33,188 nt of DNA, from positions 1 through 33,188 of the forward strand of contig QHSR01000063.1 in NCBI GenBank assembly GCA_003221635.1. The letters are read 5' to 3'. Positions within the stretch are counted from its first letter, which is position 1. Each line of letters opens with the position of its first letter. The position numbers were made by a program, and so were the translations under genes. Below, one piece after another: positions 4,458 to 21,286 of the stretch. The notes under the pieces were generated by a model. It saw only the letters and a program-made list of their open reading frames with translations, was not told where the DNA came from and searched no databases. This stretch comes from Candidatus Rokuibacteriota bacterium (GTDB taxonomy: Bacteria > Methylomirabilota > Methylomirabilia > Rokubacteriales > CSP1-6).

Positions 4458-5552
4458 TCAGCCGCCCAGATCGACGATGGCGATGACGGGACCGCCGCCG
4501 TGCGGTCCCTGGTGCATGGCATCGACCGAGACGAAGACGGCTGGATCTCCGATCGCCGCCGCCGCCACGCCGCCGACCGCCGCCTTGGAGTGGCGATGGT
4601 GGTGGACGTCGGAGTCGTCGAGCATGATCTGGCGTCTGCCGCGCAGCGTGCCGCGATGGTCGGCCTCGGACTTGATGAAGCAGTTCACGAGGCGGCCCTT
4701 GAGGTCTTCGGCGCGCGGTCGGTCCGGCAGCTCGAGCCCGGCGTTCCGGATCGCCGCGTAGATGCCGTCGAGGTCGAGCGCATCCTTCATCACGCTGTGA
4801 CCGATGCGGTAGCGCCCGCCCGCGGAGGCCTTGTTGCCCATGAGCACGATCTGCGCTCGCGTCAGCTCGACGCCGGAGGAGCAGGACGCGACCGACGAAT
4901 ACAGGTCGAGATCCTTGCAGATCTGCTCGGCACGCGGCATCGGGATCTCGCCCAGCGCGACCGCGATGCCCAGGCCGGTGGTGCCGTTCGACACGCCCAT
5001 CGAGTCGTGCACTTCACAGGCCACGGTCTTGCCCCGCCGCTTCGCGTTCTCCACCCATTCGATGGTGAGCAAGGGCGTCTTGGTCTGGACGTAATGCACG
5101 TCTTTCGAGTCCTCGATGCCGGCATCCTTCATCGCCGCCTTCACGCCCTCGGCGACGACCTCGACCATGCGCAGCCGGCCGATGTCTTCGGGCTGAAGCT
5201 CTGCGCTCATGGCGGTCCCGATTACCAGGCGCGACTTGTCCGCAGATCCTTTCCCCTCGTTCCTCGCGAACACGGTCGCGTGAGGTGTGATGACGCCGTC
5301 GCAGCCCCCGGACCACACCATCGGGATCGTCGCGACCTCGGCCTCGCCGCGCTTGCCGTGCTTCAACAGCACGCGCCGGAAGGCGTGGTCGGCGAGCAGG
5401 CGGGTGAAGTCGTTGACCCCGCCGTTGCCCTCGGTCTTCCCCACGACGGCCACGACCTGGTCGGCGGTGAACTGGCCGGCCAGGATGCGCTCCTCGAGGC
5501 CGGAGGCATCCTGGACGCTTTTGAGCTCGACTTTTGCCACTTCGACGGCCAT
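4458..5552 (-). CDS. Ring-opening amidohydrolase (cyanuric acid hydrolase / barbiturase family)
   Basis: The 364-residue product has the length and signature motifs of the AtzD/barbiturase family, which opens six-membered cyclic amides such as cyanuric acid or barbiturate. The fold is three related domains, each contributing a Ser-Lys pair. Visible here are GKTEGNG with a Lys near residue 39, the first Ser in WSGGCDGV (about 81), the Lys in VQTKTPLL (158), the second Ser in CSSGVEL (225/226), and the late metal-loop motif SVDAMHQGP followed by GGGP. The start ATG 5552 is preceded by GAGGAG at 5562-5567 with 9-base spacing. It sits between an importer operon and a phosphoesterase, with no biuret or allophanate hydrolase gene nearby. 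Cyanurate versus barbiturate cannot be decided from motifs alone. Confidence 0.9.
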
Positions 5553-6545: not shown

Positions 6546-6995
6546 ATGGCACGCCTGACGATCAACGGGAAAACCAACGAGGTCAATGTCGATCCCAACA
6601 CGCCCCTGTTGTGGGCGATCCGCGAGCAGGTCGGCCTCACCGGCACCAAATACGGCTGCGGGATGGCCCTGTGCGGCGCCTGCACGGTGCACCTCGACGG
6701 CAAGGCGATCCGTTCCTGCGTGACGCCCGTCAGCGCGGCGGTGGGCAAGCAGGTCACCACCATCGAAGGCCTCGCCGCCGGCGGGGCGCTCCACAAGGTT
6801 CAAAAGGCCTGGGTCGACTACGAGGTGCCGCAGTGCGGCTACTGCCAGACGGGCATGATCATGGCGGTGGCCGCGCTCCTGAAGGACAAGCCGAAGCCGA
6901 CCGACGCCGATATCGACGCGTCGATCACGAACATTTGCCGGTGCGGCACGTTCCAGCAGGTGCGAGAAGCGATCCACGCCGCGGCGAAGGCATAA
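6546..6995 (+). CDS. (2Fe-2S) subunit of a xanthine dehydrogenase-family molybdenum hydroxylase
   Basis: This 149-residue protein carries two 2Fe-2S clusters that pass electrons from the molybdenum site. The plant-type ferredoxin cluster is seen in [13 protein letters not shown] with a further Cys in IRSC. The second, all-helical domain has [11 protein letters not shown] and ICRCGTF. The ATG at 6546 is preceded by a long purine-rich ribosome site ending 3 bases before it. The molybdopterin subunit follows 12 bases downstream. The two-subunit layout, without a separate FAD subunit, matches isoquinoline 1-oxidoreductase-type (IorA) enzymes, where cytochrome c or another carrier takes the electrons. 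A close paralogue is encoded at 20831-21286. Confidence 0.93.
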
Positions 6996-7007
6996 GGGGG
7001 AGAGGTC

Positions 7008-9188
7008 ATGATCACCAAGGCTCCGAAGATCGATCGCCGCTCCTTCATCATCGGCACCGCCGCGGTCGGCAGCGGGCTCGCCCTGGGCCTGAAGATCCCG
7101 TTCGGCGCGACCGTCGTTCGCGCGCAGGACGGCTCGCCCGAGATCAACGCCTGGGTGGTCATCCGCCCCGACGACACCGTCGTGATCCGCGTCGCGCGCT
7201 CCGAGATGGGCCAGGGCACGATCACCGGTCTCGCCCAGATGGTGGCCGAGGAGCTCGAGTGCGACTGGGCGAAGGTGACCACCGAGTACCCGACGCCCGG
7301 CCAGAGCGTCGCGCGCAAGCGCGCGTGGGGCAACTTCTCCACGGGCGGTAGCCGCGGAATCCGAGAGTCGAACGAGTACGTCCGCAAGGGCGGCGCCACG
7401 GCGCGGGTGATGCTGGTGCAGGCCGCGGCCAACGCCTGGGGTGTGCCCGCCGCCGAGTGCAGCGCCGCCAACAGCGTGATCACCCACAAGCCCTCTAGCC
7501 GCACGACGACCTACGGCAAGGTCGCGGAAGCCGCGGCCAAGGTGACGCCGCCGACGGAGGTAACGCTCAAGGACCCGAAGGATTGGAAGATCATCGGCAA
7601 GTCGGTCAAGCGCCTGGATACGATGGGCAAGGTGACCGGCGCCCAGATCTACGGCGCCGATCTGAAGCTCCCCGGCATGCTCAATGCCGCGATCAAGGAC
7701 TGTCCGGTGTTCGGCGGCAAGGTGAAGAGCTTCGAGGCCGCCAAGGTGAAGACCATGCCGGGCGTCCGCCACGTGCTGCAGGTCGGCGACTCCGCCGTCG
7801 CCGTGGTGGCCGAGACGTGGTGGCAGGCCAAGACCGCGCTCGACGCGCTCCCGATCGTCTGGGACGAAGGCCCCAACGCCCAGGTCTCGAGCGCCACGAT
7901 CGCCGAGATGCTGAAGGCCGGTCTCGACGCCGACCAGGCGTTCGTGCGCACGCAGGTCGGCGACGTGAAGTCCGCCATCGCCGGCGCCGCCACGAAGGTC
8001 GAGGCGGTGTATGCCTATCCGTTCCAGAACCACGCGCCCATGGAGCCGATGAACGCGACGGCGAAGTACACCCCGGATCGCTGCGAGGTCTGGGTGCCGA
8101 CGCAGAACGGCGAGGCCGCGTTTGCGGCGACGCTGGCGGCGTCCGGTCTTCCCGCCGACAAGTGCGAGGTCTACAAGATCAACCTCGGCGGCGGCTTCGG
8201 ACGGCGCGGGGCGTTCCACGACTACGTGACGCAAGCGATCCTCATCGCCAAGCAGGTCCCGGGCACGCCGGTGAAGTTACTGTGGACCCGCGAGGAGGAC
8301 ATGACGCACGGCCGCTATCACCCGGTCATGCAGGCGAAGCTGACGGGTGGCCTGGATGCGAGCGGCAACCTCGTCGGGCTCCACCTGCGGCTGTCCGGAC
8401 AGTCGATCCTCGCGGCCGTGTTCCCGCAGAATTTACAAGATGGCCGAGACAACGCCACCTTCCAGGGGCTCGACCCGAGCGGCGACTTCACCCTGGGCTA
8501 CACCGTTCCCAACTTGCTGATCGACCACGCCATGCGCAATACGCACGTGCCGCCCGGGTTCTGGCGCGGCGTGAACATCAACCAGAACGCGATCTTCCTC
8601 GAATGCTTCCTGGACGAGCTGGCCAAGGCAGCCGGGCAGGACGCGCTCGAGTTCCGCCGCAAGCTGATGAGCAAGCATCCCAAGCACCTCGCCGTGCTGA
8701 ACGCCGTGGCCGACCGAGCGGGCTGGGGCAAGCCGGCGCCGCAGGGTGTCCATCGCGGGCTGGCGCAGATGATGGCGTTCGGCAGCTACGTCGCGGCGTG
8801 CGCGGAGATCTCCGTGACCGGCGGCGACAAGATCAAGGTCCGGCGCATCGTCTGCGCGACGGATCCCGGGTATGCCGTCAACCCGGCGCAGATCGAGCGG
8901 CAGATCGCCGGGTCGTTCGTCTACGGGTTGTCCGCGGTATTCATGGAGGAGTGCACGGTCAAGGACGGCCGCATCGAGCAGACGAACTTCCACAGCTACG
9001 ATTCGATGCGGATCGCGCAGATGCCGAAGGTCGAGTCGATCATCATGCCGTCCGGCGGGTTCTGGGGCGGCGTCGGCGAGCCGACGATCTGCGTGGCGGC
9101 GCCGGCGGTCCTGAACGCGTACTTCGCCGCGACCGGCAAGCGCATCCGCACGTTCCCGCTGAAGAACCACGGCCTCCAGATGGTGTAG
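7008..9188 (+). CDS. Xanthine dehydrogenase-family molybdopterin-binding subunit (IorB-like), Tat-exported
   Basis: The 726-residue catalytic subunit starts with a twin-arginine signal (DRRSFIIGTAAVGSG, residues 5-20), so the folded enzyme is probably exported. Molybdopterin-binding motifs include SEMGQGT (about residue 65), GGGFGRRG, and the late GGVGEPTI whose Glu is the expected catalytic base. The family hydroxylates heterocycles or oxidises aldehydes using water as the oxygen source. GGGGAGAGG precedes the ATG. Downstream lie a small cytochrome c (4 bases away), a flavoprotein and sox genes on the same strand, so its electrons may enter a periplasmic cytochrome pool. The substrate is unknown. 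A paralogous cassette at 18628-21286 is not linked to cytochromes. Confidence 0.92.
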   Translation: MITKAPKIDRRSFIIGTAAVGSGLALGLKIPFGATVVRAQDGSPEINAWVVIRPDDTVVIRVARSEMGQGTITGLAQMVAEELECDWAKVTTEYPTPGQSVARKRAWGNFSTGGSRGIRESNEYVRKGGATARVMLVQAAANAWGVPAAECSAANSVITHKPSSRTTTYGKVAEAAAKVTPPTEVTLKDPKDWKIIGKSVKRLDTMGKVTGAQIYGADLKLPGMLNAAIKDCPVFGGKVKSFEAAKVKTMPGVRHVLQVGDSAVAVVAETWWQAKTALDALPIVWDEGPNAQVSSATIAEMLKAGLDADQAFVRTQVGDVKSAIAGAATKVEAVYAYPFQNHAPMEPMNATAKYTPDRCEVWVPTQNGEAAFAATLAASGLPADKCEVYKINLGGGFGRRGAFHDYVTQAILIAKQVPGTPVKLLWTREEDMTHGRYHPVMQAKLTGGLDASGNLVGLHLRLSGQSILAAVFPQNLQDGRDNATFQGLDPSGDFTLGYTVPNLLIDHAMRNTHVPPGFWRGVNINQNAIFLECFLDELAKAAGQDALEFRRKLMSKHPKHLAVLNAVADRAGWGKPAPQGVHRGLAQMMAFGSYVAACAEISVTGGDKIKVRRIVCATDPGYAVNPAQIERQIAGSFVYGLSAVFMEECTVKDGRIEQTNFHSYDSMRIAQMPKVESIIMPSGGFWGGVGEPTICVAAPAVLNAYFAATGKRIRTFPLKNHGLQMV

Positions 9189-9192
9189 ACGC

Positions 9193-9483
9193 ATGTTGAA
9201 GGTCATCGCCGCCGCGATCGGGTCCATTTCGATCGCGGCGGTGGTCGTCGCGTCGGCGGAGCCGCCCGCCGGCGCCGCGGCGTGCTCGGGCTGCCATCCC
9301 GCCTCGACGCGCGTGACATCGCCGGTGCTTCGGTTGGCCGCGCGCGATCAGGCCGCGATCGTCAAGGCGATGCAGGACTTTCGCTCGGGCGTCCGGGCCG
9401 CCACCGTCATGGACCGGATCGCCAAGGGCTTCACCGACGAGGAAATCCAGGCGATCGCCGCCTGGTACGCTGCGCAAAAGTGA
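9193..9483 (+). CDS. Small exported monoheme cytochrome c (FccA-like)
   Basis: The 96-residue product has a Sec-type signal (residues 1-29, cleavage likely near GAAA), one heme motif CSGCH at residues 31-35, and a short class I cytochrome body with a candidate distal Met in ATVMDRI and the C-terminal helix EEIQAIAAWYAAQK. The next gene, a sulfide-dehydrogenase-type flavoprotein, starts inside its stop codon (GTGA at 9480-9483). The pair therefore looks like the cytochrome and flavoprotein subunits of a flavocytochrome c. Four bases separate it from the molybdenum hydroxylase, which could be a second electron donor. That last point is inference from gene order. Confidence 0.88.
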   Translation: MLKVIAAAIGSISIAAVVVASAEPPAGAAACSGCHPASTRVTSPVLRLAARDQAAIVKAMQDFRSGVRAATVMDRIAKGFTDEEIQAIAAWYAAQK

Positions 9484-10754
9484 AGTCGAGCCGCCGCGCG
9501 TTCTTGAAGCTCGGCATCGCGGCCACCGGCTCGGCCGCCCTCTTCTCCCCTCCGGCCTTCTCACAAGGGGCCGCCGCGCGCGTCGTCGTCGTCGGAGGAG
9601 GATTCGCCGGCGCCAGCTGCGCCCGCGCCCTCCGGCAGGCCGATCCGCGCATCGCCGTCACGCTGGTCGAGGCGAACGCGACGTTCATCGCCTGTCCGTT
9701 CAGCAACGCGGTGATCGGTGGCTTGCGCGAGCTGACCGCGCAGCAGTTCACGTACGAGCGCGTCGCCGCCGACGGCATCGTCGTCGCGCGCGCGACCGCG
9801 ACGGCCGTCGACGCGCAGGCGCGGTCGGTCACGCTCGCGGACGGTGCACGCCTGCCGTATGACAGGCTGGTGCTGGCGCCGGGCATCGACATTCGCTGGG
9901 GTGCCTTGCCGGGCTACGACGAGGGGGCGGCCGCGCAGATGCCGCACGCCTGGAAGGCGGGCGAACAAACGCTGTTGCTGCGCCGTCAGCTCGAGGCCAT
10001 GGACGACGGTGGGCTCGTGGTCATCTCGGCCCCGGCGAATCCGTTCCGCTGCCCGCCCGGGCCCTACGAGCGCGCGAGCCTGATCGCGCACTATCTCAAG
10101 ACGAAGAAGCCGAAATCCAAGCTGCTCGTCCTCGACGCCAAGGATGCGTTCTCCAAGCAGCGGCTGTTCCAGGCCGCCTGGGCCGAGTTGTACCCCGGCT
10201 TGCTCGAGTGGGTGCCGCTGTCCAAGGGGGGCAACGTCACCTCGGTGGACGCCGCGACCCGCACGCTGGTGACCGATTTCGGCCGCCACCAGGCGAAGGT
10301 GGCCAACGTCATCCCGCCGCAGAAGGCGGGCCGCATCGCGGACGTCGCCGGCGTCGCCGACCGCAGCGGCTGGTGCCCGATCGATCCCGTCACGTTCGAG
10401 TCGAAGCTGCAGGCCGGCATTCACGTCATCGGCGACGCCGCGATCGCGGGCGCGATGCCGAAGTCGGCCTTCGCCGCGAACTCGCAGGCCAAGACGTGCG
10501 CGGCGGCGGTGGCTCGTCTCCTCGCGGGCGGCACGCCGTCCGCCCCCAAGCTGATCAACACCTGCTACAGCCTGGTGGCGCCCGACTACGGAATCTCGGT
10601 CGCCGGCGTCTACCAGCCCTCGGGCGGGCAGCTTGCCGACGTCCCCGGCGCCGGCGGTGTCAGCCCCACGGATGCGCCGCGCGCAACGCGGGCGGCCGAG
10701 GCCGTGTTGGCCGAGGCCTGGTTCCGTACGATCACCGGCGAGGTCTTCGGGTGA
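9480..10754 (+). CDS. fccB: FAD-dependent flavocytochrome c sulfide dehydrogenase-type flavoprotein
   Basis: This 424-residue protein starts at GTG 9480, overlapping the cytochrome stop by 4 bases. It has a Tat signal (SSRRAFLKLGIAATGSA), an N-terminal FAD dinucleotide fold (VVVVGGGFAGASCA), a FAD attachment-region motif FIACPFSN, and two Cys motifs that match the redox-active pair of FccB: NPFRCPPGPYERAS and GWCPIDPVTFES. FccB oxidises sulfide or polysulfide and passes electrons to its cytochrome subunit. The C-terminal flavocytochrome domain with NTCYSLVAPDYG is present. Length matches the family. It is followed by soxX with another GTGA overlap, which supports a sulfur-oxidation role. Exact substrate (sulfide, or the product of the sox proteins) is inferred. 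Confidence 0.88.
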   Translation: MKSSRRAFLKLGIAATGSAALFSPPAFSQGAAARVVVVGGGFAGASCARALRQADPRIAVTLVEANATFIACPFSNAVIGGLRELTAQQFTYERVAADGIVVARATATAVDAQARSVTLADGARLPYDRLVLAPGIDIRWGALPGYDEGAAAQMPHAWKAGEQTLLLRRQLEAMDDGGLVVISAPANPFRCPPGPYERASLIAHYLKTKKPKSKLLVLDAKDAFSKQRLFQAAWAELYPGLLEWVPLSKGGNVTSVDAATRTLVTDFGRHQAKVANVIPPQKAGRIADVAGVADRSGWCPIDPVTFESKLQAGIHVIGDAAIAGAMPKSAFAANSQAKTCAAAVARLLAGGTPSAPKLINTCYSLVAPDYGISVAGVYQPSGGQLADVPGAGGVSPTDAPRATRAAEAVLAEAWFRTITGEVFG

Positions 10755-11164
10755 GACTGGTGGCGGCGATCGTCGCCGCCAGCTGTACGGTGGGCGTGGC
10801 GAGTGGGCAAGATGCGATCCCGCAGTCGCTCACCGGCGCCAAGGGCGATCCGGCGCGTGGCCGGGCGATGGTCGCCAACCGCCAGGTCGGTCTGTGCTTG
10901 CTCTGTCACAGCGGGCCGTTCCCGGAGGAGCGCTTCCAGGGCAATCTCGCGCCCGATCTCAGGGGCGCCGGCAAGCGTTGGTCCGAAGGCCAGCTCCGGC
11001 TCCGGATCGTCGATTCGGCCCGGATCAACCCGGCGAGCATCATGCCGGCGTATCATCGGACAGAGGGGCTGGTGCGGGTGGCGCCGGCCTGGCGTGGCAA
11101 GACCATCTTGAGCGGGGAGCAGATCGAGGACGTGGTGGCTTTCCTGATGACGCTGAAGGATTGA
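10751..11164 (+). CDS. soxX: SoxX, monoheme c-type cytochrome of the sulfur-oxidising SoxAX complex
   Basis: Starting at GTG 10751 inside the preceding stop, the 137-residue product has a Sec signal (residues 1-20), heme motif CLLCH at 49-53 and the conserved SoxX tail: PDLRGAGKRW, INPASIMPAYH with the probable Met ligand, RTEGLVRV, a WRGK segment and EDVVAFLMTLKD. SoxX pairs with SoxA (encoded at 12082) to attach a thiosulfate-like substrate to the SoxY cysteine. The stop TGA directly abuts the soxY ATG. The order X-Y-Z-A is conventional. What is unusual is the lack of soxB and soxCD in the same run. Confidence 0.9.
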   Translation: MRLVAAIVAASCTVGVASGQDAIPQSLTGAKGDPARGRAMVANRQVGLCLLCHSGPFPEERFQGNLAPDLRGAGKRWSEGQLRLRIVDSARINPASIMPAYHRTEGLVRVAPAWRGKTILSGEQIEDVVAFLMTLKD

Positions 11165-11638
11165 ATGAGACGACGCGCCTCGCGCCGTGAATTCCTGGTG
11201 GCCGCCGGGGGCGCCGCGGCCGGCATCGGGCTCGGGTCCGTGATTGCCGTCGCGCCGGCGCGCGCGACGCCCGAGGCGATGCGGGAGGCCATCCGCAAGG
11301 TGGTGGGCTCGGCTCGCATTGGGACGGGCCGGGTGAAGCTCGAGCTGCCGCCGCTCTCCGAGAATGGCAATACCGTGCCGCTCGCGGTCAGCGTCGAGAG
11401 CCCCATGACCGCGGCCGATCACGTGAAGGCCATTCACGTCTTCACGGAAAAGAACCCGCAGCCCGAGGTCGTGAGCTTCCGGCTCGGCCCGCGCGCCGGG
11501 CGGGCGAGCGTGGCGACCCGCATCCGGCTCGCCGACACGCAGACCGTCGTCGCGATCGGTGAGATGAGCGACGGCTCGTTTTGGTCCGCCAGCGCGAGCG
11601 TCGTGGTGACCCTCGCGGCGTGTCTGGAGGAGGCGTAG
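11165..11638 (+). CDS. soxY: SoxY-like sulfur carrier with atypical C-terminus
   Basis: The 157-residue protein has a Tat signal (SRREFLVAAGGAAAG), then the SoxY immunoglobulin-like domain: LELPPLSENGNTVPL, VESPMTAADHVKAIHVF, EKNPQPEVVSF and a late strand with IRLADTQTVVAIGEMSDG. In SoxY the chain normally ends in GGCGG, the flexible arm whose Cys carries the sulfur. Here the end is LAACLEEA: the Cys is present five residues from the end, but the glycines on both sides are Ala, Leu or Glu. The protein may therefore still carry a substrate but with a stiffer, longer tail. Start ATG 11165 abuts the soxX stop. SoxZ follows after 2 bases. Confidence 0.87.
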   Translation: MRRRASRREFLVAAGGAAAGIGLGSVIAVAPARATPEAMREAIRKVVGSARIGTGRVKLELPPLSENGNTVPLAVSVESPMTAADHVKAIHVFTEKNPQPEVVSFRLGPRAGRASVATRIRLADTQTVVAIGEMSDGSFWSASASVVVTLAACLEEA

Positions 11639-11640
11639 CC

Positions 11641-11961
11641 GTGGCGAACGCCCTCGTCAACGTGCCGGCCCGCGCCCGACGCGGCGACGTCATCGAGATC
11701 AAGACGCTGGTCTCACATCCGATGGAAACCGGATATCGCCGCAGCCAGCTCGGCGTGTCGATCCCGCGCGACATCATCAGACTGTTCGTGTGTACCTATA
11801 ACGGTACCGAAGTCTTCCGCGCCGAGCTTCACCCGGCGATCGCCGCGAATCCGTTCATCGTGTTCTCGACGGTCGCCACCGAGAGCGGCACCATCGCGTT
11901 CCACTGGACCGGCGACAACGGCTTCACGGCGACGGAGTCGGCAGCGATTCTTGTTGAGTAG
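11641..11961 (+). CDS. soxZ: SoxZ, partner of the SoxY sulfur carrier
   Basis: The 106-residue protein starts at GTG 11641, two bases after soxY. It has no signal peptide, as expected since SoxZ is co-exported with SoxY. Family motifs include ARARRGDVIEIKTLVSHPME, GYRR, the mid strand FVCTYNGTEVFRAELHPAI, FIVFSTVATESGTI and the final FHWTGDNGF. SoxYZ presents the substrate-loaded SoxY arm to the other Sox enzymes. The stop TAG lies inside a truncated copy of a dispersed GC-rich element, which separates this gene from soxA. Confidence 0.9.
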   Translation: MANALVNVPARARRGDVIEIKTLVSHPMETGYRRSQLGVSIPRDIIRLFVCTYNGTEVFRAELHPAIAANPFIVFSTVATESGTIAFHWTGDNGFTATESAAILVE

Positions 11962-12029
11962 GGGGCCCCGACATGGCCGATTTTGTTGGGTAGGGGGCCC
12001 CGAAATGGCCCCCTACACCCCCCGCGCTC
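11951..12029. repeat. Tandem GC-rich element, copies B (partial) and C (complete)
   Basis: Two direct repeats with a period of 32 bases start at 11951 and 11983. Each reads TTGTTG, a purine, GTAGGGGGCCCCGA, A or C, then ATGGCC: 28 positions with two differences. The second copy continues into a complete hairpin: GTAGGGGGCC (11990-11999), loop CCGAAAT, GGCCCCCTAC (12007-12016), then ACCCCCC and CGCTCG. The first copy lost the distal half of the right arm. The soxZ stop codon lies in copy B. Copy A is at 2466. Confidence 0.7.
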
Positions 12030-12035
12030 GTCGCC

Positions 12036-12052
12036 CCCCGGCAAAGCCGGGG
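12036..12052. other. Second stem-loop in the soxZ-soxA gap
   Basis: CCCCGGC (12036-12042) and GCCGGGG (12046-12052) make a perfect 7-bp stem with an AAA loop, immediately after the dispersed element. No U-tract follows, so it need not terminate transcription. It could lower soxA expression relative to soxXYZ or protect the upstream message. Confidence 0.45.
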
Positions 12053-12081
12053 CGCTCCTCGATTACCCGATTCGCCCCGTA

Positions 12082-12855
12082 GTGCGGAGATTCGTTGCTG
12101 CACTGGGCGCCGTCGCGATCGCGGCGTCGGCCTTCGCCGGTGAGATCCCGCGCGCTGAGCGGCGCTCGGGCTACGACTTCATGAGCCGCGAGACGCGCGC
12201 GATGCAGGACGACGACACCGCCAATCCCGGTCTGCTCTGGGTGCTCGAGGGCGGAACGCTGTGGAACCGGAAGATCGGCGCCGCCGGCCGCGCCTGCGCC
12301 GACTGCCACGGCGACGGCCGCGCGAGCATGAAGGGCGTGGCCGCTCGCCACCCGGCCTTCGACGCCGCACAGGGGCGGCCGGTCAGCCTCGAGCAGCGGA
12401 TCAACATCTGCCGCACCGACCGACAGCAGGCACCGCCGTTGGCCTGGGAAAGCCGCGAGCTCCTGGCGCTGACCGCGTACGTCGCGCGCCAATCGCGCGG
12501 CCTGCCGATCGAGATCGCGATCGACCAGCGCGCCCAGCCGTTTCTCGACGCCGGCCGCGCCATCTTCCATCGCCGCCAGGGCCAGCTCAATCTCGCCTGC
12601 AGCCAATGTCACGACGACAACTGGGGACGGCAGCTCGCGGGGAGCGTCATCCCTCAGGCGCACCCGACCGGGTACCCGGTGTACCGTCTGGAATGGCAGG
12701 GCCTCGGCTCGCTCCAGCGGCGTCTGCGCAACTGTCTCGTCGGGATGCGCGCGGAGCCCTATGACTACGGCGCGCCCGAATTCGTCGATCTCGAGCTGTT
12801 CCTGATGTGGCGCGCGCGCGGGATGATCATCGAGGCGCCAGCCGTGCGACCCTGA
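12082..12855 (+). CDS. soxA: SoxA, diheme cytochrome of the SoxAX complex
   Basis: From GTG 12082 the product is 257 residues with a Sec signal (residues 1-20). Two heme motifs are visible: CADCH at 72-76 and CSQCH at 173-177, so this is a diheme SoxA. The catalytic Cys that bears the persulfide during substrate conjugation is present at 218 in RLRNCLVGMRAEPY, followed by YGAPEFVDLELFLMWRARG. These are diagnostic of SoxA. An earlier INICRTDRQQ segment also matches the family. The gene follows soxZ after 120 bases filled with GC-rich hairpins, longer than other gaps in the operon, so expression may be modulated there. No soxB follows; the next gene encodes an NTF2-like protein with its own promoter. 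Confidence 0.9.
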   Translation: MRRFVAALGAVAIAASAFAGEIPRAERRSGYDFMSRETRAMQDDDTANPGLLWVLEGGTLWNRKIGAAGRACADCHGDGRASMKGVAARHPAFDAAQGRPVSLEQRINICRTDRQQAPPLAWESRELLALTAYVARQSRGLPIEIAIDQRAQPFLDAGRAIFHRRQGQLNLACSQCHDDNWGRQLAGSVIPQAHPTGYPVYRLEWQGLGSLQRRLRNCLVGMRAEPYDYGAPEFVDLELFLMWRARGMIIEAPAVRP

Positions 12856-18627: not shown

Positions 18628-20829
18628 CTACACGAGCTTGAGGTTCTTCAGCGGGAGGCTCCGCACCGGCTTGCCGGTCGCCGCGAAGATTGCATTGAGC
18701 ACCGCGGGCGTCACCACGCAGATCGTCGGCTCACCGACGCCACCCCAGAAGTCGTGTGACGGTACGATCACGGTCTCCACGACAGGCATTTCGGCCAGAC
18801 GCAAGATCCGGTAGCGGTCGAAGTTCAGCTCCGTCATGCGCCCGTTCTGTACGGTGCACTCGCCGTAGAACGCCGCGCTCAGACCGTAGGCCACCGAGCC
18901 TTCGACCTGGGCGGCGATCTGATCCGGGTTGACCGCATGGCCGCAATCGAGCGCCAGCACCATGCGGTGCACCTTGACCTTGCCCTCGCCGCTCACCGAG
19001 ACCTCGGCGACGGCCGCCGAATAGCTGCCGTAGCCCATGAACTGCGCGATGCCGCGATGCACGCCGGCGGGCAGCGGCTTGCCCCAGTTGCCCTTGTCCG
19101 CCACGGCGTTGAGAACGGCGAGATGCTTCGGATGCTTGCCCATGAGGGCGCGGCGGAACTCGAGCGAGTCGGTGCCGGCGGCGCGGGCCGCTTCTTCGAT
19201 GAAGCACTCCATGTACACGCCATTCTGATTGGTGTTGACGCCACGCCAGGGGCCGACCGGCACGTGCGTGTTGCGCATCGCGTACTCGATCAACAAGTTC
19301 GGCACGGTGTAGCCGAGCTGCGCGTCGCCGGGCTTGTCGGTGTACCCCTGGAGCTGTCGATCATCCTTGTTGCCGACGATCAATGCCGGATTCACGAACG
19401 CGTTGATCGACTGGCCGGAGATGCGAACGTGCAACCCGACGAGGGTGCCGTTCTCATCGAGGCCTGCGGCCAGCTTGCACTGCGAGATCGGACGGTAGAA
19501 ATCGTGCCCCATGTCCTCCTCGCGCGACCAGATCATCTTGACCGGGACGTCGGGGAACTGCCTGGCGATGAGGACCGCCTGGCGAACGTAGTCCTGGTTG
19601 CCGCCGCGCCGGCCGAAGCCGCCGCCGAGGTCGTGCCGGTAGACCTCGCACTGGGCCAGCGGGACGCCCGACTGCTCGGACAGGGCGGCCAGCGAAGCCT
19701 CCGAGTTCTGCGTCGGCACCCAGCACTCCGCCCGGTTCGCCGAGATCTTCACGGTGCAGTTCATCGGCTCCATCGTCGCGTGGGCCAGGAACGGCGTGCT
19801 GTAGACCGCTTCGACCTTCTTCGGGGCACCCTGGATGGCGGAGAGCGCGTCGCCCTCGTTGCGGAACGCGTATGCCTCCTTCGCCGCCAGCCCCTCCTTG
19901 AGGTGCTCGGCGATCGTCGCGCTCGACTGGGAGGCGCCGGCGCCTTCGTCCCAGACGATCGGCAGCGCATCGAGCGCGGACTTGGCCCGCCACCACGTGT
20001 CGGCGACGACCGCGACGGTCGCATCGTTCACCTTGACGACACGGCGGACGCCGGGCCGGCCGGACACCTTCGCCTCCTCGTAGCTCACGAGCTTGCCGCC
20101 GAACACCGGGCAGGCCTTGATGGCCGCGTGCAGCATACCCGGCAGCTTGAGATCGATCGCGTAGACCTTGCTGCCGTCGAGCTTGTCGGCCGTGTCCAGC
20201 CGCTTCACCGGCTTGCCAGCGATCTTCCAGTCCCTCGGGTTCTTGAGCGTGATGCTCTTGGGATCCGGTGCGGGCAGCTTGGCGGCGGCCTCGGCGACCT
20301 TGCCGTAGGTCGTCCTGCGCCCGGAGGCCGTGTGCGTGATGACGCCGTCGGCCACGCTGACCTCGCCGACTGGCACGTTCCACTGGTCGGCCGCCGCTTG
20401 CAGCAGCAGCATCCGCGCGACGGCGCCGCCGCGCCGGACATAGTCCTGCGAGGTGCGGATGCCGCGGCTGCCACCGGTCCCCATCTCGCCCCAGATGCGC
20501 TTGCGCGCGAGGTTCTGGCCCGGCGTGATCGACTCGGTGGCCACTTTCTTCCAATCGCACTCGAGCTCCTCGGCGACGAGCTGGGCCAGGCCGGTGAGCG
20601 TGCCTTGCCCCATCTCCGAGCGCGCGATGCGAATCACACAGGTGTCGTCGGGTTTGACGACGACCCAGGCATGGACCTCGGTGCCAGCGTTGGCCACGCT
20701 CTGTGCCTCGGCCGATCCGAACCCCGACGGCAGCCGGATCCCGATGGCCAGGCTGCCGGCGGCGGCCGCCGTGCCGACGATGAAGTTGCGGCGCGAGAGA
20801 TTCAAAATCCTGGCGCTGGTCGCTTTCAT
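18628..20829 (-). CDS. Second xanthine dehydrogenase-family molybdopterin-binding subunit (IorB-like), Tat-exported
   Basis: This 733-residue protein is a paralogue of the subunit at 7008-9188, with matching blocks throughout: Tat motif SRRNFIVGTAAAAGS, SEMGQGTLTGLAQLVAEELE, GGGFGRRGG, NTHVPVGPWRGVNTNQNG and the late GGVGEPTI with the expected catalytic Glu. It should catalyse hydroxylation of a heterocycle or oxidation of an aldehyde outside the cytoplasm. ATG 20829 follows the small-subunit stop by one base (TGA C ATG), with GGGAGGG upstream. Unlike the first copy it has no cytochrome or sulfur genes beside it. A frameshifted unknown gene follows 27 bases after its stop. Confidence 0.92.
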   Translation of the reverse strand: MKATSARILNLSRRNFIVGTAAAAGSLAIGIRLPSGFGSAEAQSVANAGTEVHAWVVVKPDDTCVIRIARSEMGQGTLTGLAQLVAEELECDWKKVATESITPGQNLARKRIWGEMGTGGSRGIRTSQDYVRRGGAVARMLLLQAAADQWNVPVGEVSVADGVITHTASGRRTTYGKVAEAAAKLPAPDPKSITLKNPRDWKIAGKPVKRLDTADKLDGSKVYAIDLKLPGMLHAAIKACPVFGGKLVSYEEAKVSGRPGVRRVVKVNDATVAVVADTWWRAKSALDALPIVWDEGAGASQSSATIAEHLKEGLAAKEAYAFRNEGDALSAIQGAPKKVEAVYSTPFLAHATMEPMNCTVKISANRAECWVPTQNSEASLAALSEQSGVPLAQCEVYRHDLGGGFGRRGGNQDYVRQAVLIARQFPDVPVKMIWSREEDMGHDFYRPISQCKLAAGLDENGTLVGLHVRISGQSINAFVNPALIVGNKDDRQLQGYTDKPGDAQLGYTVPNLLIEYAMRNTHVPVGPWRGVNTNQNGVYMECFIEEAARAAGTDSLEFRRALMGKHPKHLAVLNAVADKGNWGKPLPAGVHRGIAQFMGYGSYSAAVAEVSVSGEGKVKVHRMVLALDCGHAVNPDQIAAQVEGSVAYGLSAAFYGECTVQNGRMTELNFDRYRILRLAEMPVVETVIVPSHDFWGGVGEPTICVVTPAVLNAIFAATGKPVRSLPLKNLKLV

Positions 20830-20830
20830 G

Positions 20831-21286
20831 TCACGCCCTCCCACCGGCCGCCATGTGCACCGCCGCCCGGATGCGCTGATAGGTTCCGCATCGGCAGATG
20901 TTCGACATCGCGTCGTCGATGTCCTGGTCGGTCGGTTTCGGGTTTCTCTTCAGCAAGGCCGCCGCGGCCATGATCTGCCCGGACTGGCAGTAACCGCACT
21001 GCGGCACGTCGACCGCCGCCCAGGCCTTCTGCACGGGATGCGAGCGGGTGGCCGACAGCCCTTCGATGGTGACGATCTTATCGGTGGCCTTCACGCTCCC
21101 GACCGGCATAGCGCAGGAGCGCACCAACGCGCCGTTGATGTGCACGGAACAGGCGCCGCATTGCGCGACGCCACAACCATACTTGGTGCCCGTCAGGCCC
21201 ACCTGCTCGCGGATGGCCCACAGCAGCGGCGTGTCGGCCTCCACCTGCACCTCACGGACCCGGCCATTGATGTTGAGCTTAGCCAT
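20831..21286 (-). CDS. (2Fe-2S) subunit of the second molybdenum hydroxylase
   Basis: The 151-residue electron-transfer subunit matches the protein at 6546-6995, with the block [20 protein letters not shown] shared exactly. Cluster motifs: [13 protein letters not shown] plus VRSC for the first, and [11 protein letters not shown] with ICRCGTY for the second. GGGAGGGG precedes ATG 21286. It is the first gene of the operon, and the 169 bases upstream to the Uma2 stop hold no other gene that I can see. The near identity of the N-terminal block to the first cassette indicates duplication or a common source. Confidence 0.92.

Follow-up and report, generated by a model that had tools for sequence, protein, structure and literature searches.

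Which partners does a SoxY carrier serve when its C-terminal arm reads LAACLEEA in place of GGCGG? The glycines of the SoxY arm are needed to enter the narrow active sites of partner enzymes, and the initial annotation of this locus proposed that the changed tail signals a different partner set or substrate. The protein is encoded in the window, by which we mean the whole 33,188-nucleotide stretch analysed here (contig C106 of genome G000, a Rokubacterial assembly judged 88.8% complete and 5.2% contaminated). On its + strand, positions 6546-12855 hold a compact cluster with the order xdhS, xdhL, small cytochrome c, FccB-like flavoprotein, soxX, soxY, soxZ and soxA.

The cluster opens with the small subunit of an XdhS-like molybdenum (Mo) hydroxylase (6546..6995, +), which carries Fer2/Fer2_2 regions as two [2Fe-2S] domains and in which no signal peptide was seen. 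The XdhL-like Mo-cofactor large subunit follows (7008..9188, +; MoCoBD_1/2), with a Tat motif (RR at residues 10-11) and the catalytic Glu691 within GVGEP. Next come two optional cluster members: a small FccA-like c-type cytochrome with one CxxCH (9193..9483, +), and an FccB/SoxF-like flavocytochrome c sulfide dehydrogenase flavoprotein with FCSD_central and FCSD-flav_bind domains (9480..10754, +). The Sox genes complete the unit. SoxX (10760..11164, +) scores 80.6 bits with TIGR04485 (cut-off 61), and the TIGR04487 protein at 11165..11638 (+), a SoxY-related AACIE arm protein, carries a Tat-like signal (SRREFL). SoxZ (11641..11961, +), which starts with GTG at 11641, scores 82.5 bits with TIGR04490 (cut-off 76), and SoxA (12082..12855, +), with two CxxCH haem motifs, scores 231.6 bits with TIGR04484 (cut-off 110). 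Upstream, on the - strand, a gene of the cyanuric acid amidohydrolase family (4458-5552; 448.6 bits against a cut-off of 360) adjoins a peptide-type ABC transporter; it is not a conserved neighbour at other loci.

The arm itself occupies 11600..11638 (+; VVVTLAACLEEA). Its codons, GTC GTG GTG ACC CTC GCG GCG TGT CTG GAG GAG GCG TAG, lie in frame with the SoxY open reading frame from 11165 and translate as VVVTLAACLEEA up to the stop. This codon reading confirms that both glycine pairs are replaced and that the arm is two residues longer past the carrier cysteine, with four residues after Cys153 against two in GGCGG. The same arm recurs well beyond this genome. A collection scan whose peptide patterns left the tail out fetched 80 homologous loci from Rokubacteria, Alpha- and Betaproteobacteria. 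In these, the residue before the cysteine is Ala in 80/80, and the residue two after it is Glu in 79 and Asp in one. Leu, Ile or Val usually fills the position between, and 3-8 residues, mostly 4-5, follow the cysteine. Conservation across the 80 loci rules out chance or local mutation as the source of the tail. In an AlphaFold model the SoxY-like beta fold is kept, while pLDDT drops to about 53 over the last residues from about 90 in the body, which suggests that the tail is still a mobile arm. Five of the loci (L021, L022, L046, L049 and L068) lie on environmental MAG contigs titled Klebsiella pneumoniae, Bordetella parapertussis or Chitinophaga pinensis; they group with the betaproteobacterial loci, and the species labels look wrong.

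This tail is the signature of a protein family already known and named in NCBIfam. The window SoxY scores 211.6 bits against the TIGR04487 cut-off of 172 (‘SoxY-related AACIE arm protein’, a product name that RefSeq/GenBank also uses on Methylobacterium and Neorhizobium plasmids). Score and arm together make it a full member, with LAACLEEA here and AC.E in 79/80 relatives. It falls just below the true-SoxY model TIGR04488 (119.9 bits, cut-off 125) and lacks the C-terminal GGCGG of true SoxY; the other SoxY of its own genome, on contig C84, scores 140.3 bits with that model. In a tree of 75 SoxY sequences rooted at the midpoint, the ACxE proteins form one clade (support 99/95), which is the grouping that had been predicted for AACLEEA-type tails. 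The clade lies among alphaproteobacterial GGCGG proteins, a topology most naturally read as a single derivation of the ACxE tail from a GGCGG ancestor. The tail change occurred once, so tail and gene neighbour are correlated by descent and not through many independent events.

Other SoxY arms also depart from GGCGG. A canonical-lineage SoxY at 1495-2001 of locus L120 (genome G059), and likewise that of L167, ends in VVVAGCAA; G059 is a 99%-complete Rokubacterium without SoxB, and with SoxB gone the GGCGG tail appears to have relaxed. Further odd arms, GGCLS and DGCA, occur at L111 (1495-1959), L119 and L127. The GGCLS arm is found in two genomes, in one of them beside FccB, and the DGCA arm also stands beside FccB. 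The L111 SoxY is under the cut-off of every NCBIfam SoxY model.

Gene neighbourhood gives the arm its most constant companion. Across the 64 loci with at least 3.3 kb of upstream and 2 kb of downstream flank, xdhL, encoding the xanthine-oxidase-type Mo hydroxylase, is present in 63, soxXA in 59 and fccB in 43. In contrast to canonical operons, soxB was found in 0/64 of these loci and in 0/48 of those with 7.9 kb on both sides. The predicted co-occurrence of the tail clade with Mo hydroxylases was thus found in 63/64 loci, and likewise in 12/13 genomes and 8/8 units of an independent sample (below). At L085 the ACxE tail is present and xdhL is not nearby. Four loci (L022, L041, L046 and L052) are cut down to xdhS-xdhL-soxY-soxZ, with SoxXA and FccAB dropped. 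Since four otherwise complete loci lack SoxXA, not every SoxY of this type can be loaded by a SoxXA encoded in cis. The genomes of the four reduced loci encode SoxB over cut-off elsewhere, and a canonical system could supply the SoxXA, a trend that is not significant (p 0.29). Clustering of open reading frames over the 80 loci revealed no further general member beyond the core unit that might show the substrate. Otherwise the flanks hold only lineage-specific genes; in rhizobia and Chelatococcus, for example, these include a pair that probably encodes a histidine kinase and a response regulator. The xdhSL-Sox unit is also found on plasmids of Methylobacterium, Neorhizobium galegae and Roseomonas marmotae. 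At loci L026, L032, L037 and L051 the Sox genes are preceded by two tandem XdhSL pairs, of which the second belongs to a separate clade.

The association holds at the level of whole genomes. An ACxE SoxY over cut-off occurs in 12 of 95 genomes of the phylum, and bit scores fall from 202 to 115 with nothing between. XdhL at 80% identity or more is present in 13 of the 95, namely those 12 and G053, whose locus is severed by the contig end within fccB. The two proteins therefore co-occur in 12/13 genomes against 0/82 otherwise (p about 2e-14). The independent sample, 199 genomes of one order, contained eight ACxE-type SoxY, and 8/8 lie in xdhSL-soxXYZA units; seven are over the TIGR04487 cut-off and one is just under it, with the tail AACIDGG. 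The other 19 SoxY of this sample score lower, and 19/19 end in GGCGG.

SoxB, for its part, keeps company with the canonical arm. We took SoxB surroundings from genomes that also have the ACxE cluster, and there 25/25 SoxY beside SoxB end in GGCGG (one as GGCG). Neither an ACxE tail nor a linked-type Mo enzyme was found near these 25, compared with xdhL at 63/64 ACxE loci (Fisher p about 1e-22). The initial annotation had held that its argument would lose weight if the same tail were common in standard SoxB operons; it occurs in 0/25. Its statement that SoxB and SoxCD are lacking stands for the cluster and fails for the genome, whose contig C84 encodes SoxB together with a GGCGG SoxY and whose contig C292 encodes SoxC. 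More broadly, SoxB is over cut-off in 40 of 59 cluster-bearing genomes. The ACxE cluster does not need SoxB, because 19/59 of these genomes, eleven isolates included, have none over cut-off. The isolates are Enterovirga aerilata, three Chelatococcus, Paramesorhizobium deserti, five Mesorhizobium and Phyllobacterium salinisoli, and one 99%-complete Rokubacterium is also among the 19. No SoxC over cut-off was found in the SoxB-free cluster genomes tested, and in six isolates the ACxE SoxY is the sole SoxY-family gene.

The accompanying proteins retain the residues that their families require. The active-site cysteine of SoxA, within RLRNC, had been described as intact with loading plausible. The description holds: this residue, Cys251 when counted in the reading frame starting at 11983, is kept in 74/74 aligned sequences and aligns with solved SoxA chains. 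Both SoxA haem motifs (CxxCH pairs) and the SoxX haem cysteine are also conserved in the aligned set, and with these features intact SoxAX appears equipped to load SoxY. XdhL Glu691 is present in 72/72 aligned sequences, the Tat motif in 67/67 and all eight XdhS cluster cysteines in 66/66. Mo-cofactor domains, catalytic Glu and two [2Fe-2S] clusters in the small subunit place the pair in the xanthine-oxidase family of Mo hydroxylases. FccB conserves its redox pair (Cys191 in 48/48 and Cys362 in 47/47 aligned sequences), which together with its FCSD domains marks it as a flavocytochrome c sulfide dehydrogenase.

The closest solved relative of XdhL is PDB chain 8gy3_C, an aldehyde dehydrogenase large subunit that matches over the full length (E 1e-70) and is a distant homologue. 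The window locus encodes no FAD subunit, and we know of no SoxYZ partner for the 8gy3 aldehyde dehydrogenase. Pairwise distances of SoxY correlate with those of XdhL (0.65) and of SoxZ (0.66). The Sox-linked XdhL clade has fixed residues of its own; because these, including N341 next to the H342...E346 motif, differ from the paralogues, they suggest that the clade has its own substrate. Close XdhSL copies without adjoining Sox genes occur in three Rokubacteria (on C174 of the window's own genome, L201 and L202), and under some conditions the Mo enzyme may therefore work by itself. We considered a SoxYZ-independent Mo enzyme on the strength of these three copies and rejected it, as they nest within the linked clade of the XdhL tree and each genome keeps a linked copy. 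The rows for L172, L192, L197 and L198 in that tree were mis-extracted reading frames and were left out of account. On C174 (L088, 15003-17643 and 9389-10132), the XdhSL pair is 87% identical and has no adjoining Sox genes, and a fused SoxYZ-like carrier is encoded at a distance of about 5 kb. The window itself holds a second Mo hydroxylase pair, xdhL/xdhS at 18628-21286 (-), with no Sox gene beside it; it is 62-63% identical to the Sox-linked XdhSL, and the same paralogue is present in several relatives.

With the clade and the Mo co-occurrence both as predicted, the proposal of a different partner set or substrate is supported. We consider it probable that this SoxY is the swinging-arm carrier of a Sox variant independent of SoxB and SoxCD, whose constant partner is the periplasmic, Tat-exported XdhS/XdhL enzyme. 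From gene context we infer contact between SoxY and the Mo enzyme; the tail would physically fit another enzyme, and the substrate named below is a putative one. In such a pathway, SoxXA would oxidatively couple Cys153 of the arm to a thiol or a reduced sulfur compound. The altered arm, with a small Ala before the cysteine and an acidic Glu two residues after it, could then offer the adduct to the Mo enzyme. As a structural guess, this Glu would occupy the place of the canonical SoxY C-terminal carboxylate, and its fixation may stem from this. The Mo enzyme would oxidise the carried group and pass electrons via its Fe-S clusters to c-type cytochromes, and the FccAB-like pair, where present, might remove or oxidise leftover sulfane sulfur. 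Mo hydroxylases of the xanthine-oxidase family work on carbon, and the cluster has no SoxB that could hydrolyse a sulfonate; for both reasons we favour an organosulfur substrate over thiosulfate. We hold this weakest step of the scheme with low confidence. The fuller idea, that a SoxYZ arm with a sequence code of its own holds an (organo)sulfur group covalently and offers it to a periplasmic Mo hydroxylase without SoxB, is accordingly put forward only tentatively, as a possibility that falls short of even odds.

Other readings of the arm have to be weighed against this one. Part of its conservation lies in the RNA. The soxZ ribosome-binding site falls within the SoxY arm codons (11625-11641 in the window, and in most relatives too), and the window's LEE codons, CTG GAG GAG, double as the soxZ Shine-Dalgarno sequence; a Shine-Dalgarno-like core stands at that place before soxZ in 61/78 loci. 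This double use of the Glu codon explains part of the Glu conservation in most loci. However, the Glu is conserved at the protein level too, because 8 loci retain it with the codon GAA and 5 retain it at a distance of 20-49 nt from the SoxZ start, and the Ala before the cysteine (80/80) is written with four codons. That the acidic tail reflects RNA-level selection without protein meaning is hardly credible, and as a pure Shine-Dalgarno artefact it is largely refuted, the overlap accounting for it only partially. It is also improbable that this SoxY oxidises thiosulfate in the ordinary way, with a tail altered by drift and with SoxB and SoxC borrowed from elsewhere in the genome. The SoxB and SoxC genes of the window's own genome, and SoxB in 40 of the 59 genomes, would permit such borrowing, but genomes with SoxB have a separate GGCGG SoxY beside it, the 19 SoxB-free genomes with their 11 isolates offer none to borrow, and the tail is conserved, with no sign of drift.

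A division of labour is a more serious contender, though still rather unlikely: SoxYZ, SoxXA and FccAB would process thiosulfate or inorganic sulfane sulfur, with polysulfide or tetrathionate as possible products, while the Mo hydroxylase served a separate organic substrate and had nothing but its regulation and electron acceptors in common with the Sox proteins. The intact redox pair of FccB, the close XdhSL copies that stand alone and the aldehyde dehydrogenase as nearest solved XdhL relative all fit such an arrangement. Against it, the unit stays together in Rokubacteria, Alpha- and Betaproteobacteria and on plasmids, and the minimal loci consist of exactly xdhSL and soxYZ, without SoxXA and FccAB. 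SoxYZ might instead carry no substrate and, as a persulfide donor, restore the terminal sulfido ligand on which the exported Mo cofactor depends. The cofactor of the xanthine-oxidase family needs such a ligand, the pairing with an enzyme of this family is constant, and FccB and SoxXA could conceivably make a SoxY persulfide. We nonetheless find this very unlikely, since known sulfuration is cytoplasmic and precedes export, and the window paralogue at 18628-20829 has no SoxYZ.

The preferred reading, a SoxY arm serving a Mo hydroxylase, can be set beside known systems. Canonical SoxY (TIGR04488) shares with the window protein the fold, the Tat signal, the carrier cysteine, the SoxZ partner and a SoxXA with its active-site cysteine. 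The window cluster differs in having AACxE for GGCGG and a Mo hydroxylase instead of SoxB/SoxCD; canonical Sox encodes SoxB with SoxXYZA, whereas here SoxB lies elsewhere in the genome. The nearest concept comes from quinoprotein dehydrogenases, whose fused SoxYZ-like carrier (TIGR04557) provides a precedent: there a SoxYZ-type carrier is linked to a periplasmic non-Sox dehydrogenase (PMC12997753). That carrier is a single fused protein with a PQQ enzyme as partner, while SoxY and SoxZ are separate genes here and the window SoxY scores 65.1 bits against the TIGR04557 cut-off of 140. Altered SoxY arms also exist in symbiotic sulfur oxidisers and may shift substrate (PMC11237559). The same large study of SoxY arms dropped sequences without a GGC motif, and therefore excluded the AACxE family. 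In Bradyrhizobium diazoefficiens, soxY2 is reported to be dispensable for thiosulfate oxidation (PMC5748708). The TIGR04487 model gives a name to the tail alone: in the open literature searched, we found no description of AACIE, of TIGR04487 or of a SoxY-Mo hydroxylase system, and no function or Mo-hydroxylase link for the family.

These distinctions matter for how sulfur metabolism is read from genomes. Annotation tools name these genes SoxX, SoxZ and SoxA, and it is tempting to count them as thiosulfate oxidation. If this system does its work without SoxB and on another substrate, we are misreading its occurrence in many Rokubacteria and soil Alpha- and Betaproteobacteria. A one-motif test, GGCGG versus AC.E, separates the two SoxY types, and cultured isolates with only the AACxE version (Chelatococcus, Enterovirga and Mesorhizobium) make its function directly testable. 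The family's near-exclusive Mo-enzyme neighbourhood, free of SoxB at the loci examined, points to a SoxB-independent sulfur pathway. If the scheme proposed here is true, the Sox carrier principle would have been re-used with a different family of Mo enzymes, in a system widespread in soil and freshwater bacteria.
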